Both the position numbers and the translations under genes were made by a program. DNA of 25,763 nt from a virus. Positions 2,417 through 10,240 of the stretch are shown one piece after another (the first letter of the stretch is position 1; each line of letters starts with the position of its first letter). The notes beneath the pieces are model-generated. The model had not been told where the DNA came from and did no database searches. It was given only the letters and a program-made list of their open reading frames with translations. The stretch covers positions 1 to 25,763 of the IMG/VR virus record IMGVR_UViG_3300036770_002615; one strand, given 5' to 3'.

Positions 2417-2652
2417 CACAAGAAGACACTGCCAAGGCCCTGAAACTTCTCACGGACACCGAGGCGCTCACTGGCACAGACCTCTCGACCATTCGATGGG
2501 CCGTTCAGCGTCACGCTGACGTGATGGCCGCTGGACAGGACGCGCACACTACGAGAGCTGAGCAACGCTTAGTTCCTGGCACTACTGGTCCTAAGGAAGC
2601 CCCAAACACCGTAGACACCCACATTACTAATCCTTGGAGGATCGAACGATGA
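2413..2652 (+). CDS. hypothetical small hydrophilic protein, 79 aa
   Basis: The protein starts MTQEDTAKALKLLTDTEALT. It appears helical and charged for about 45 residues, then ends in a low-complexity, polar, proline-containing tail. No domain is recognised. It is linked by ATGA overlaps to the mini-gene before it and to the LamG gene after it. Its 3' end carries the ribosome site of the LamG gene. It is probably a small partner of the surface proteins; there is no direct evidence of function. Confidence 0.55.
   Translation: MTQEDTAKALKLLTDTEALTGTDLSTIRWAVQRHADVMAAGQDAHTTRAEQRLVPGTTGPKEAPNTVDTHITNPWRIER
2636..2640 (+). promoter_or_regulatory. ribosome binding site deciding the LamG start
   Basis: GGAGG lies 8 bases before ATG 2649. 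An earlier in-frame TTG at 2634 overlaps this site and so is not a sensible start. Confidence 0.75.
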
Positions 2653-3314
2653 GTTGGAGAATTAGCGGCAAAGAGCGTGATCACGACTTCACTAGCGTGT
2701 CCCTGCTGCTTCACGGCAACGGGACTAACGGCAGCACCACGATCACCGATAGCAGCCCTACACCTAAGACGGTGACGGCGGTGGGTAACGCGCAGATCAG
2801 CACGGCGCAAAGCAAGTTTGGTGGTGGCAGTATTGCGTTTGATGGAACCGGTGATTATCTAAGCCTTCCCGAAAGCAATGGGTTTACTTTTGGCACGGGG
2901 GACTTTACGATTGAGCTTTTTTTTAGAGCGTCTTCGATCCGCACACAGGCTCTATATCATTCGGGATTGGTAGCCGGGCCGATATTGTACTTGACAAACG
3001 ATGTGAAAGCCGCTTGGTTCTTTAGTGGTACCAACAGGGTAATTAGCGGACCTGGTTCTTATGCAATAAACACTTGGCACCACGCAGCGCTTACAAGAAG
3101 TGGGTCAAGCACTCGTTTGTTCATTGATGGAAGCCAAGTTGGCAGTGTATTTGTTGATAGCAGCAATTACACGTCTTCCATGCCAAGGGTCGGAGCCAGC
3201 TATGACTCCGCTCTGCCGTTTGATGGCTACATCGACGAATTCCGCATCACCAAAGGCATCGCCCGCTACACCGCCAACTTCACCCCACCCACCGCACCGT
3301 TCCCGGACATCTGA
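2649..3314 (+). CDS. LamG/concanavalin-A-like lectin-fold protein (221 aa)
   Basis: The start is ATG 2649, set by GGAGG at 2636-2640. After about 20 residues the protein is a single LamG-like jellyroll domain: SLLLHGNGTNGST near residue 20, FGGGSIAFDGTGDYL near 60, FTFGTGDFTIELFFR near 80, WHHAALTRSGSSTRLFIDG near 145, and the typical ending DGYIDEFRITKGIARY. This family binds glycans or proteins and is common in phage fibre and surface proteins. It has no signal peptide and no catalytic site. It follows the paralogue pair in the same ATGA chain, so it probably contributes to host-surface recognition. Its middle DNA is AT-richer than the flanks, suggesting recent exchange. Confidence 0.85.
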   Translation: MSWRISGKERDHDFTSVSLLLHGNGTNGSTTITDSSPTPKTVTAVGNAQISTAQSKFGGGSIAFDGTGDYLSLPESNGFTFGTGDFTIELFFRASSIRTQALYHSGLVAGPILYLTNDVKAAWFFSGTNRVISGPGSYAINTWHHAALTRSGSSTRLFIDGSQVGSVFVDSSNYTSSMPRVGASYDSALPFDGYIDEFRITKGIARYTANFTPPTAPFPDI

Positions 3315-3449: not shown

Positions 3450-4022
3450 ATGATTGCCAAATCCGTCTTAGCCCTACTCCTAGCGTTCACCAACTGGGAC
3501 GCCATCACAACCACCGGCACCTCAGCTCGCATTGATCGCACCGATGGCGTAGTGCTGCAGATTCGCACCAGCAACCCTGGTGATCACCTCAGCGGGCTGA
3601 AGATGACAACCGCTAGCCCACGCAAGCGCGAGCAGGATCCACGCAAGGCGGTGACGGGCTACTACCTGGATCGGGGCATCTTCACCCGGTGGCGGTTCAT
3701 CGGCAGCAAAGGGTCCGACACGCTGGAGTTCGGCCCGCAGGGACACATCATCAGCAAGCAATCTGGTGGGGTGGTGGACTTCAAGCGGGACACCGCCCCG
3801 GATCGCTTCACGTTCACCAACCGGATTGACGTGGCCAAGTGCTCCGAGAAGCACGGCTTCCAGTGCCACCCCCTCAACCACCTGCAGCGGGTGGTGATCC
3901 GCAACTTCGGGCGAGAGGACGTGATCGACCTGCAGGGCAAGCTCTACCGCTACGCCGACGCGAAGAGTGGCGTGCTGCCCGGTGTGCCGGTGGATCGGCT
4001 GCGGGTGGAGCTAATGCCGTGA
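3450..4022 (+). CDS. hypothetical protein with hydrophobic N-terminus (190 aa)
   Basis: The first residues are MIAKSVLALLLAF followed by a polar stretch, which looks like a short signal peptide or membrane anchor. The remainder is soluble, with many charged residues and possible beta strands, for example GIFTRWRFIGSKGSDTLEFG near residue 75. Two cysteines lie at KCSEKHGFQCHP near residue 130. I do not recognise the family. A secreted or membrane-inserted phage protein near receptor-binding genes could alter the host surface (for example superinfection exclusion), but nothing shows that here. Its stop overlaps a GTG start (GTGA 4019-4022). Confidence 0.7.
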   Translation: MIAKSVLALLLAFTNWDAITTTGTSARIDRTDGVVLQIRTSNPGDHLSGLKMTTASPRKREQDPRKAVTGYYLDRGIFTRWRFIGSKGSDTLEFGPQGHIISKQSGGVVDFKRDTAPDRFTFTNRIDVAKCSEKHGFQCHPLNHLQRVVIRNFGREDVIDLQGKLYRYADAKSGVLPGVPVDRLRVELMP

Positions 4023-4138
4023 TTCTCCCGGCTGCCGTCTTCGACGCCCTGCTGGTGCGTCTGTGCCGCCCCGGCCGGTACTGCCCCCGCGTGGCCCGCG
4101 TGCTCAGCAAGCCTGCGCCATGGGAGCGCAGCGCCTAA
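4019..4138 (+). CDS. small hypothetical protein, 39 aa
   Basis: A GTG at 4019 overlaps the upstream stop (GTGA) and opens a 39-codon frame. It starts MILPAAVFDALLVRLCRPGR and is followed by a basic, proline-containing tail. The Arg- and Cys-containing composition is unusual. The evidence is only the coupled start and the fact that the frame ends 11 bp before a strong hairpin. It could be chance coding. Confidence 0.4.
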   Translation: MILPAAVFDALLVRLCRPGRYCPRVARVLSKPAPWERSA

Positions 4139-4149
4139 CATGACTCCAG

Positions 4150-4169
4150 CCCGGCAGCCTGCTGTCGGG
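4150..4169 (+). terminator. 8-bp hairpin after the small ORF, possible terminator
   Basis: CCCGGCAG (4150-4157) pairs with CTGTCGGG (4162-4169) across a CCTG loop, with one G-U pair. There is no U-tract after it, so it may be an RNA structural element or a 3'-end protector rather than an intrinsic terminator. Confidence 0.45.
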
Positions 4170-4249
4170 TCTCGATGCATGGACCGGAAACTTCCAGTCG
4201 CCGCGTCGAGCTAAGTCCTGGGTTTCCAGGCCGGGGGATTGATCACCCT

Positions 4250-4269
4250 CGCCAGTTGATCCACTGGTG
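4250..4269 (+). other. 7-bp hairpin in the structured interval
   Basis: CGCCAGT (4250-4256) pairs with ACTGGTG (4263-4269) around a six-base loop, with one G-U pair. It lies inside a possible long-range GGGGG/CCCCC stem (4233-4237 with 4310-4314). Confidence 0.45.
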
Positions 4270-4351
4270 CGCCCTCGACCCATTCGGCAAGCGCGACGGA
4301 TCAGCAACACCCCCTAAGCCTCTCCACGGAAGCTCAAACCTGGGGGTCGCT

Positions 4352-4423
4352 GGGTCGGTAGCCCAATGCAGAGGCAGCCGAGACAATCGGAACTCAGTGC
4401 TGGTTCAAGCCCAGCCCGGCCCC
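4352..4423 (+). tRNA. tRNA-like element, probably degenerate
   Basis: The acceptor arms GGGTCGG (4352-4358) and CCGGCCC (4416-4422) pair over all 7 positions with one G-U. TA follows the 5' arm, as in tRNAs. A D-like arm has GCC (4361-4363) paired with GGC (4373-4375). The T arm is canonical: GCTGG (4399-4403), loop TTCAAGC, CCAGC (4411-4415). The anticodon arm is aberrant: CCGA (4378-4381) pairs with TCGG (4387-4390) around only five bases, GACAA, with no U33 and no seven-base loop. The D loop lacks the GG pair. CCA is not encoded. I read it as a decayed tRNA or a tRNA-mimicking RNA, not a normal decoder. Confidence 0.5.
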
Positions 4424-4468
4424 TTGAAGAGTCAGCCTGCGTATGTTGAGGCCTTACACTCCGGCTAA

Positions 4469-4490
4469 CCTAGAATCGGACTAGGTGGAG
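4469..4490 (+). promoter_or_regulatory. hairpin abutting the Shine-Dalgarno of the gene at 4501
   Basis: CCTAG (4469-4473) and CTAGG (4481-4485) can pair around seven bases. The GGTGGAG ribosome site (4484-4490) overlaps the 3' arm and lies 10 bases before TTG 4501. Folding could limit initiation; this is an inference. Confidence 0.4.
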
Positions 4491-4500
4491 CGCGCTTACC

Positions 4501-5103
4501 TTGATTTACCCAGCTAGTTACGACATTACGCTTTTACAGAACGCGACGTGGAGCACCTCCCTGCGCGTGACGGAAGAGCGCCAAACGCTTGAATCTGTAG
4601 TCGTAGCTGCGGGAGCAGTGACGTTTACTGCGGATTGCCATGGCCTCGTCGTCGGTGATGCAGTTGTCATCACAGCTGCTGCGGTTGAGGGGCAGGAGCT
4701 GGAAGTGCCCTGCGGTATGGCGCTGAATACGGTGTACTACGTCATTGCATCCGGATTAACCGCAAGTGCGTTCAAGCTCTCCGCAACGAGTGGTGGGTCC
4801 GAACTGACTGTGACGGGTAGTGCTGTGGGGCAGTTTTACGTTGCAAAACCCACAGATTTAACGGGCTATAGCGTAGACGCAGACATCTACGGCTTGGTTA
4901 CTAACCAAGAAGAAGCAACTATGGTATGCACAATCGAGGATGCCACAGCCGGTGTTGTATCTCTTGAAGTACCGCCCGCGACGTCTGCATCGTTGGAGCC
5001 CGGCCGGTATGGCTACGACGTTAGTTTTACCGCCGCAGGCGGCACCCGCTACTATTTTTTGAAAGGCGTCGCCACGGTTGAGCGCACCTACTCTCGGAGC
5101 TGA
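4501..5103 (+). CDS. beta-sandwich (BppU/Ig-like) phage structural protein with inserted domain (200 aa)
   Basis: The start is a TTG, chosen because GGTGGAG lies 10 bases upstream and no ATG or GTG fits better. The frame around the insert reads YPASYDITLLQNATWSTSLRV (in pieces YPASYDIT, WSTSLRV), then KPTDLTGYSVDADIYG, EATMVCTIED, GRYGYDVSFTAAGG and FLKGVATVERTYS. This is the pattern of the small beta-sandwich phage proteins related to baseplate/fibre adaptors. Between residues about 30 and 118 an extra module is inserted, with HGLVVGDAVVITAA and NTVYYVIASGLTASAFKLSA, a motif seen in other phage structural proteins. It precedes a fibre gene by 2 bp, so it may connect that fibre to the virion. 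Confidence 0.7.
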   Translation: MIYPASYDITLLQNATWSTSLRVTEERQTLESVVVAAGAVTFTADCHGLVVGDAVVITAAAVEGQELEVPCGMALNTVYYVIASGLTASAFKLSATSGGSELTVTGSAVGQFYVAKPTDLTGYSVDADIYGLVTNQEEATMVCTIEDATAGVVSLEVPPATSASLEPGRYGYDVSFTAAGGTRYYFLKGVATVERTYSRS

Positions 5104-9884: not shown

Positions 9885-10240
9885 AGGAGGTTGCTAGGTA
9901 CTGGGCGTCTGGCAGCAAGAAAATCGAAGATAAGTCCCAGGACGACGCCAAGGCGTTCGGCATTTCTATCCCCGCCTCCTCTGAGCCCCAGGAGGAGCAT
10001 TGCGTGGTGTGGGATGAGAACTGGGAGGCGGTGTCAATGTTCCTGCGTATGCAGACCCAGTGGACCGTTTCCATGGCGGGCTACACGGGTCTGCGATACG
10101 AGGTTTTGGTGTGTTCCGGCGGACTATTTGACCTCTATGATGTTGAGGACCGCCGTACCATGCTGGACGACATCCAGGTCATGGAAATCGCGGCGCTAAA
10201 CGAGCTTCACAAGGACCAGGGGGGCAAACGGGGTGGCTAG
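9558..10240 (+). CDS. gpGT-like frameshift fusion chaperone (227 aa)
   Basis: A -1 slip at GGGAAAC (9875-9881) joins the 108 codons of the G-like gene to a frame open from 9863 to the TAG at 10238-10240, adding 119 residues. The extension begins LKEVARYWASGSKKIEDKSQ and contains VWDENWEAVSMFLRMQTQW, then GLRYEVL and DDIQVMEIAALNEL. This matches the T domain that recruits tail tube subunits to the tape measure. The T frame has no ATG/GTG/TTG with a suitable ribosome site near its beginning; the first candidate is GTG 10004, in mid-domain. Frameshifting is therefore the natural way to make it. The stop overlaps the tape measure start. Confidence 0.85.
9875..9916 (+). promoter_or_regulatory. programmed -1 ribosomal frameshift signal
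   Basis: The heptamer G GGA AAC is in the X XXY YYZ register of the upstream frame and is followed immediately by the zero-frame TAA (9882-9884). Eight bases later GTTGCTA (9890-9896) can pair with TGGCAGC (9910-9916) as a 7-bp stem with two wobble pairs, a possible stimulator. Confidence 0.85.

Follow-up and report, generated by a model that had tools for sequence, protein, structure and literature searches.

A known antitoxin RNA, the abiF RNA (RF03085), lies in what is most likely a cyanosiphophage genome, where it is found in an unusual setting: it is an orphan, it is joined to a tRNA-like RNA, and it is flanked by two RNA classes that we have not found described. The abiF RNA is the RNA antitoxin of AbiF, a HEPN toxin through which bacteria commit suicide. 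We propose, with a probability of about one half, that the interval is an RNA cassette whose orphan abiF RNA would act as a decoy antitoxin against a host AbiF, with its 3' end set by RNase P at the tRNA-like RNA. The interval (4139-4500) contains three conserved modules, A, B and C, all on the + strand of a 25.8-kb IMG/VR record (25,763 nucleotides, taken whole and referred to below as the window). Its features are as follows.

4149-4170, + strand: GC-rich hairpin of 9 bp, perhaps an additional module 5' of the others
4171-4210, + strand: long stem CTCGATGC..GCGTCGAG enclosing GAC(C)GGAAACTTCC(A)GTC, predicted by folding
4213-4302, + strand: module A, RNA with a pseudoknot and no Rfam family (covariation, covariance model)
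4217-4221/4226-4230, + strand: module A P1
4232-4237/4246-4251, + strand: module A P2
4252-4255/4264-4267, + strand: module A P3
4268-4272/4291-4295, + strand: module A P4
4258-4262/4298-4302, + strand: module A pseudoknot
4310-4347, + strand: module B, abiF RNA (RF03085; cmscan 40.9 bits, gathering score 37)
4310-4314/4342-4346, + strand: abiF RNA P1, with a U-U at its base
within 4310-4347, + strand: abiF RNA P2 (AGC/GCU), loop CUCUCCACGGAA, conserved CAAA
4348-4351, + strand: linker from abiF RNA to tRNA-like RNA (UCGCU including 4347; TCACT/TCGCT in most cyanophage copies)
4352-4422, + strand: module C, tRNA-like RNA (covariation), starting five bases 3' of the abiF RNA; acceptor GGGTCGG/CCGGCCC, mini anticodon hairpin CCGA-GACAA-TCGG, T-arm GCTGG-TTCAAGC-CCAGC
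4469-4485, + strand: inverted repeat CCTAG-AATCGGA-CTAGG, 5' of a TTG start at 4501, probably incidental

Genomic context and folding of the interval

The window carries tail, baseplate, fibre and tape-measure genes. Matches to its protein 674-1459 are restricted to Synechococcus phages (KBS-S-2A on top at 53%, S-CBS4 and S-CBWM1 at about 45%), and the window is therefore most likely a relative of the cyanosiphophages KBS-S-2A and S-CBS4, and itself a cyanosiphophage. The same gene and the adjoining 1506-2315 are twin copies of phrog_17104, a family without an assigned function, near an ORF (2634-3314) with a LamG-like lectin domain. A reading made from the sequence only had seen no credible gene in 4139-4500, and this holds: the 97-aa ORF at 4175-4468 matches nothing in Pfam or PHROG and its frame is not preserved among homologues, so that it was ruled out as a protein gene. 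Module A ranges from 87 to 91 nt in homologues, and thus no reading frame is maintained there. No Rho-independent terminator (GC hairpin with T-run) was found within 3900-4700. Across the whole window Rfam identifies a single family, the abiF RNA, and a search with Rfam 15 over 4020-4620 at E up to 10 returned nothing besides abiF and a weak tRNA-Sec.

The sequence-only reading had described the interval as densely folded and as possibly one undescribed phage RNA. The folding claim fails: the + strand, at z = -1.0, is matched in stability by 14 of 100 shuffles, and the minus strand folds better (z = -2.4). By part, z is +0.35 for module A, -0.5 for the abiF RNA, -1.4 for the tRNA-like RNA and 0.0 for the 4469-4485 hairpin. 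Folding energy, which is not significant for the interval, the abiF RNA or module A, was dropped as evidence for an RNA. With no exceptional stability over its full length, the interval owes its case for an RNA function to comparison: by conservation and covariation across phages, rather than by folding energy, the interval is a genuine noncoding RNA. The covariation which that reading had proposed to look for among homologous phage intervals is strong, takes the form of compensatory pair changes in both module A and module C, and supports the RNA role, while the idea of one undescribed RNA gives way to three modules of which the middle one is a known family. Most of the stems it had listed are present, including the hairpin near 4150-4169 (at 4149-4170), the CCTGG/CCAGG stem (module A P1), the tRNA-like fold placed at 4352-4423 (exact bounds 4352-4422) and the inverted repeat at 4469-4485, though the last has no excess stability. 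Its pairing of GGGGG (4233-4237) with CCCCC (4310-4314) is wrong; homologues pair 4233-4237 with 4246-4250 and 4310-4314 with 4342-4346. The reading was right about an RNA locus, on partly wrong grounds.

The sole segment of exceptional stability is 4149-4212 (z = -3.5, 0 of 200 shuffles as stable), which contains the two stems upstream of module A. A similar-looking stem with altered pairs, noted by eye, stands 5' of module A in two other loci (L204 and L208), and blastn matches starting at 4176 occur in three more (L138, L130 and L127).

The abiF RNA is an orphan in phages

Sequence and structure identify module B as the abiF RNA. The cmscan E value is 2e-4 over the window and 4.7e-6 over the interval, and in the Rfam alignment the window copy retains all bases of the family core, AAGCCUCUC and GCUCAAA. 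Its relatives have compensatory changes in P1 and P2, with AU, UA and GC alternatives in the three-pair P2; the parse that collected these copies demanded pairing, so that its figure of 92% paired is partly by construction. A pattern scan for the abiF RNA matched more than 100 viral stretches; judged by stem and core, many of these matches are real, and others are due to chance. Of the CCCC..GGGG form there are examples in 44 viral stretches versus 2 of 84,980 species genomes of bacteria and archaea (both Bacteroidales loci), with slightly different patterns used in the two scans. S-CBS4, a cultivated relative of the window, carries a variant scoring 34.3 bits whose P2 is GGC/GCC rather than AGC/GCU. 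Directly 5' of abiF in S-SZBM1 (L001) and in L132 and L109, there is an extra conserved module, GATAGAGG..CAAG..CTTGCTCCATC, which has no Rfam match in S-SZBM1 and which in S-SRM01 (L190) stands 3' of the unit of abiF and tRNA-Arg.

In bacteria the abiF RNA usually lies 5' of an Abi_2/AbiF gene, a position that is outside the Rfam model; in five of six Bacteroidia genomes it is about 120 nt upstream of the Abi_2 domain, and the AbiF of one of these loci (L124) matches 8VZ6 with E = 1.6e-128. The window copy has no such neighbour, and the window as a whole has no Abi_2 gene. Nor was Abi_2 found in any of about 76 viral records with abiF RNA (50 records with none, and 33 with none of which about 26 carry the RNA), many of which are fragments. 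Twelve named phages with an above-cut-off abiF RNA are complete isolate genomes free of Abi_2: S-SZBM1, S-CREM1, S-SRM01, LittleE, Baka, MrMagoo, Lolly9, T7-Ah, PZL-Ah8, Acj61, CGphi29 and CRP-143. One Bacteroidales locus (L125:4198-5421) has an abiF RNA without an adjoining Abi_2 and a gene for a HEPN-domain protein about 0.8 kb upstream of the RNA.

The structure of PbAbiF (8VZ6, an AbiF-RNA complex) has one RNA per monomer (PMC12737573), and the AbiF of C. difficile is neutralised in trans by an RNA that carries the abiF motif twice (PMC12373285). As cited in PMC12737573, a region of lactococcal phage sk1 is reported to protect phage 712 from AbiF; we found no abiF RNA in sk1 or 712.

Coupling to tRNAs and to a tRNA-like RNA

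In cyanophages and some mycobacteriophages 4-9 nt separate the abiF RNA from a tRNA or tRNA-like RNA on its 3' side, whereas elsewhere a T-run often follows. We examined 93 nonredundant copies, including a few from bacteria, with ARAGORN at a relaxed threshold. In 28 a tRNA starts at most 10 nt downstream, and these tRNAs are diverse (Ala, Gly, Leu, Ile, Met, Val, Phe, Asn, Arg, Gln, Tyr and others); another 11 are followed by a tRNA-like RNA with acceptor and T-arm (0.3% in shuffles), and in 16 a T-run comes next. Named examples with a tRNA are the cyanophages S-SZBM1 (Ala), S-CREM1 (Gly), S-SRM01 (Arg) and S-CBS4 (degenerate), and the mycobacteriophages MrMagoo (Val) and Lolly9 (Asn). Since the linkers of these two mycobacteriophages differ from those of cyanophages, the arrangement probably arose more than once. 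The cyanophage linker TCACT/TCGCT is retained in several copies without a tRNA (L008, L017, L057, L135, L139, L140, L141, L144 and L150), and processing therefore does not explain it. Other degenerate tRNA-like RNAs 3' of abiF were seen in L003, L026, L048, L116 and others, among which one group has the T-loop TGCAATT rather than TTCRANY and an unclear D-arm.

In module C the acceptor and T-arm are good, but a 4-bp mini-hairpin with a GACAA pentaloop replaces the anticodon arm; there is no anticodon loop of 7 nt, and the GG of the D-loop is absent. With no tRNA called by ARAGORN, a sub-threshold Rfam score (tRNA-Sec, 17.6 bits) and a loop of 5 rather than 7 nt, a functional tRNA was rejected. 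Rfam names no family for this tRNA-like class. Comparison with the Ro-associated tRNA-OTHER of Rhodococcus phage Trina gave E of about 1. A pattern scan found the class in at least 120 viral stretches, and in cyanophages it occurs with or without abiF. By blastn it is present, unannotated, in S-SZBM1 and in the following phages.

S-PM2, AJ630128 164652-164729: unannotated tRNA-like RNA
S-RIM8, KX349286 19279-19350: unannotated tRNA-like RNA
S-RIM32, KU594606 19493-19559: unannotated tRNA-like RNA
DSL-LC03, OR003938 41389-41462: unannotated tRNA-like RNA
S-CREM1, 9962-10041: unannotated tRNA-like RNA

The loop is GACAA in five of these six phages and GATAA in one; most rows of our alignment were picked by GACAA, so that loop invariance rests on this blastn set. 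In the alignment of 20 sequences, 96.3% of pairs hold, versus 30-49% when partners are slid. The three pairs of the mini-hairpin are intact in every sequence (100% paired) and all three have compensatory changes; for this reason the tRNA-like RNA is probably a maintained RNA rather than a decayed tRNA.

A pseudoknotted RNA upstream of abiF

Module A ends seven bases 5' of the abiF RNA and occurs in about 40 IMG/VR contigs. Its loop sequence CTCGACCCATTYGGCAAGC is present in 38 IMG/VR stretches, a few of which are unrelated coding matches, and a covariance model built on 14 copies detects 49 loci (38 + 11), the weakest being doubtful. The matches in L026, L127 and L011 (24-29 bits) are probably spurious, as those in L026 and L127 overlap abiF. 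Rfam has no match at copies of the module in other phages, and a search for the module among named phages and among plasmids gave no match.

Standard pairs fill 98.4% of the 322 pair cells, versus 28-47% with partners slid, and ten pairs have double-sided (compensatory) changes; RNAalifold independently recovers P1, P2, the outer stem and P4. P3 varies in sequence while remaining paired (CCAG/CTGG, CCGT/ACGG, ACTG/CAGT, CAGT/ACTG), at 99% versus a shuffled maximum of 77%, a figure that is partly by construction, as the arms were located through pairing. Five bases of the P3 loop pair with the 3' end of the module (GATCC/GGATC, GGTCC/GGACY, GATTC/GAATC), and module A therefore contains a pseudoknot, which is 99% paired versus a shuffled maximum of 95%. 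The 3' neighbour is the abiF RNA in most copies, and otherwise an intrinsic-terminator-like hairpin or further hairpins. Judging from these arrangements, the region around module A and abiF is a mosaic of RNA modules exchanged between phages.

AbiF in cyanobacteria

AbiF proteins are encoded on plasmids of Picosynechococcus PCC 7002 (pAQ3) and Synechocystis PCC 6714 (pSYLA). Rfam found no abiF RNA in the leaders of either gene. A structural scan (P1-A-P2-loop-P2'-CAAA-P1'), with the pattern widened after these sequences had been seen, found divergent abiF-like RNAs: two copies 5' of the PCC 7002 gene (L238:1268-1306 and 1442-1477) and one 5' of the PCC 6714 gene (L239:1432 onward), with nothing elsewhere in these loci and 0.002 per kb in shuffles. 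One of the PCC 7002 loops, CUCUCACGGAA, is almost identical to that of the window, CUCUCCACGGAA. Because cyanobacterial AbiF genes carry such RNAs, a viral decoy is plausible, although both AbiFs come from genera other than the picocyanobacteria.

Possible function of the cassette

We infer that the cassette would be made as part of the tail-gene transcript and processed into noncoding RNA. The tRNA-like RNA occupies the place where bacterial and other phage copies often carry a terminator; cleavage by RNase P immediately before it would fix the 3' end of the abiF RNA while transcription continued into the fibre genes. For the tRNA-coupled copies in general, too, the simplest interpretation is that RNase P cleavage at the tRNA would supply the 3' end, where a terminator would halt the operon. 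The phage abiF RNA would then fill the RNA-binding groove of the host AbiF HEPN ribonuclease dimer and prevent the shutdown of infection. Module A is a second structured RNA, which may serve either as a 5' end-protecting or processing element or as a decoy for another RNA-binding defence protein.

These observations could be read in other ways. The abiF-like hairpin might be a stability or 3'-end element of phage transcripts, terminator-like or tRNA-coupled depending on the phage, with no role towards AbiF. Such an element would fit the orphan state in every phage tested, the T-run that ends 16 of 93 copies and the location between late structural genes in T7-like Aeromonas phages and CRP-143. 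However, mere stability needs neither the almost unchanging unpaired core (AAGCCUCUC..GCUCAAA) by which the antitoxin family is recognised nor a three-pair P2 with compensatory AU/UA/GC changes, and the T-run is missing from most tRNA-coupled copies, so that we regard this reading as unlikely. We are similarly doubtful that the locus is a modular counter-defence array, in which module A and the upstream modules would be decoys for other RNA-binding toxins and the tRNA-like RNAs baits for anticodon nucleases. The exchange of modules around abiF between phages, the membership of one module in an antitoxin family, the pseudoknot of module A, as in ToxI antitoxins (PMC3475682), and the lost anticodon loop of the tRNA-like class speak for it; yet modules A and C have no known toxin partner, and there are copies of module A with a terminator, without abiF and with no known target. 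The wider conjecture, that cyanophages carry RNase P-cut arrays of orphan AbiF antitoxin, pseudoknotted toxin decoys and anticodon-less tRNA mimics, shuffled like anti-CRISPR genes, seems to us equally hard to favour.

Far less probable than any of these is a functionless, degenerate remnant of a tRNA cluster and a captured AbiF locus. The window's tRNA-like and abiF RNAs are among the weaker members of their classes (no ARAGORN call; 40.9 bits), but both the GACAA loop, which hardly varies, and the double-sided pair changes of modules A and C show present-day selection; covariation contradicts a remnant, and decay is conceivable for this particular copy only. A small RNA joined to a tRNA or tRNA-like RNA would offer a simple way both to recognise such RNAs within phage operons and to mature them. 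The GACAA class, unannotated in well-studied phages such as S-PM2, is testable immediately.

Comparison with known systems

Cas13 is proposed to descend from AbiF, whose antitoxin RNA now has a known structure. Module B resembles the RF03085 RNAs of AbiF-AbiFr systems (RCd22 of C. difficile; PbAbiF-RNA, 8VZ6) in core sequence, in P1 and P2 and in a score above the cut-off; it differs from them in that there is no AbiF gene, in that there is a single copy versus the two of RCd22, and in that a tRNA-like RNA rather than a terminator follows. An abiF sRNA in cyanophage S-CREM1, of the same family and likewise directly 5' of a tRNA, has already been published, and the passages of that account on abiF, Rfam and sRNA do not discuss its orphan state, the tRNA adjacency or the neighbouring RNA modules (PMC9964418). 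The orphan status at scale, the tRNA coupling and modules A and C appear to be new.

The closest parallels in principle are phage RNAs that imitate host defence RNAs. The pseudo-ToxI of phage PhiTE is, like the abiF RNA of the window, a phage antitoxin-like RNA without its toxin, resembles a type III antitoxin and suppresses abortive infection (PMC3475682); its toxin is ToxN rather than a HEPN AbiF, it consists of tandem repeats and it is not coupled to a tRNA. Racrs, the RNA anti-CRISPRs, are also solitary phage RNAs that copy a host defence RNA, although they mimic CRISPR repeats and not an antitoxin (PMC10651486). If our proposal is true, the viral antitoxin copy would be, to our knowledge, the first RNA-only counter to AbiF, and would carry the principle of pseudo-ToxI and the Racrs to the HEPN branch.
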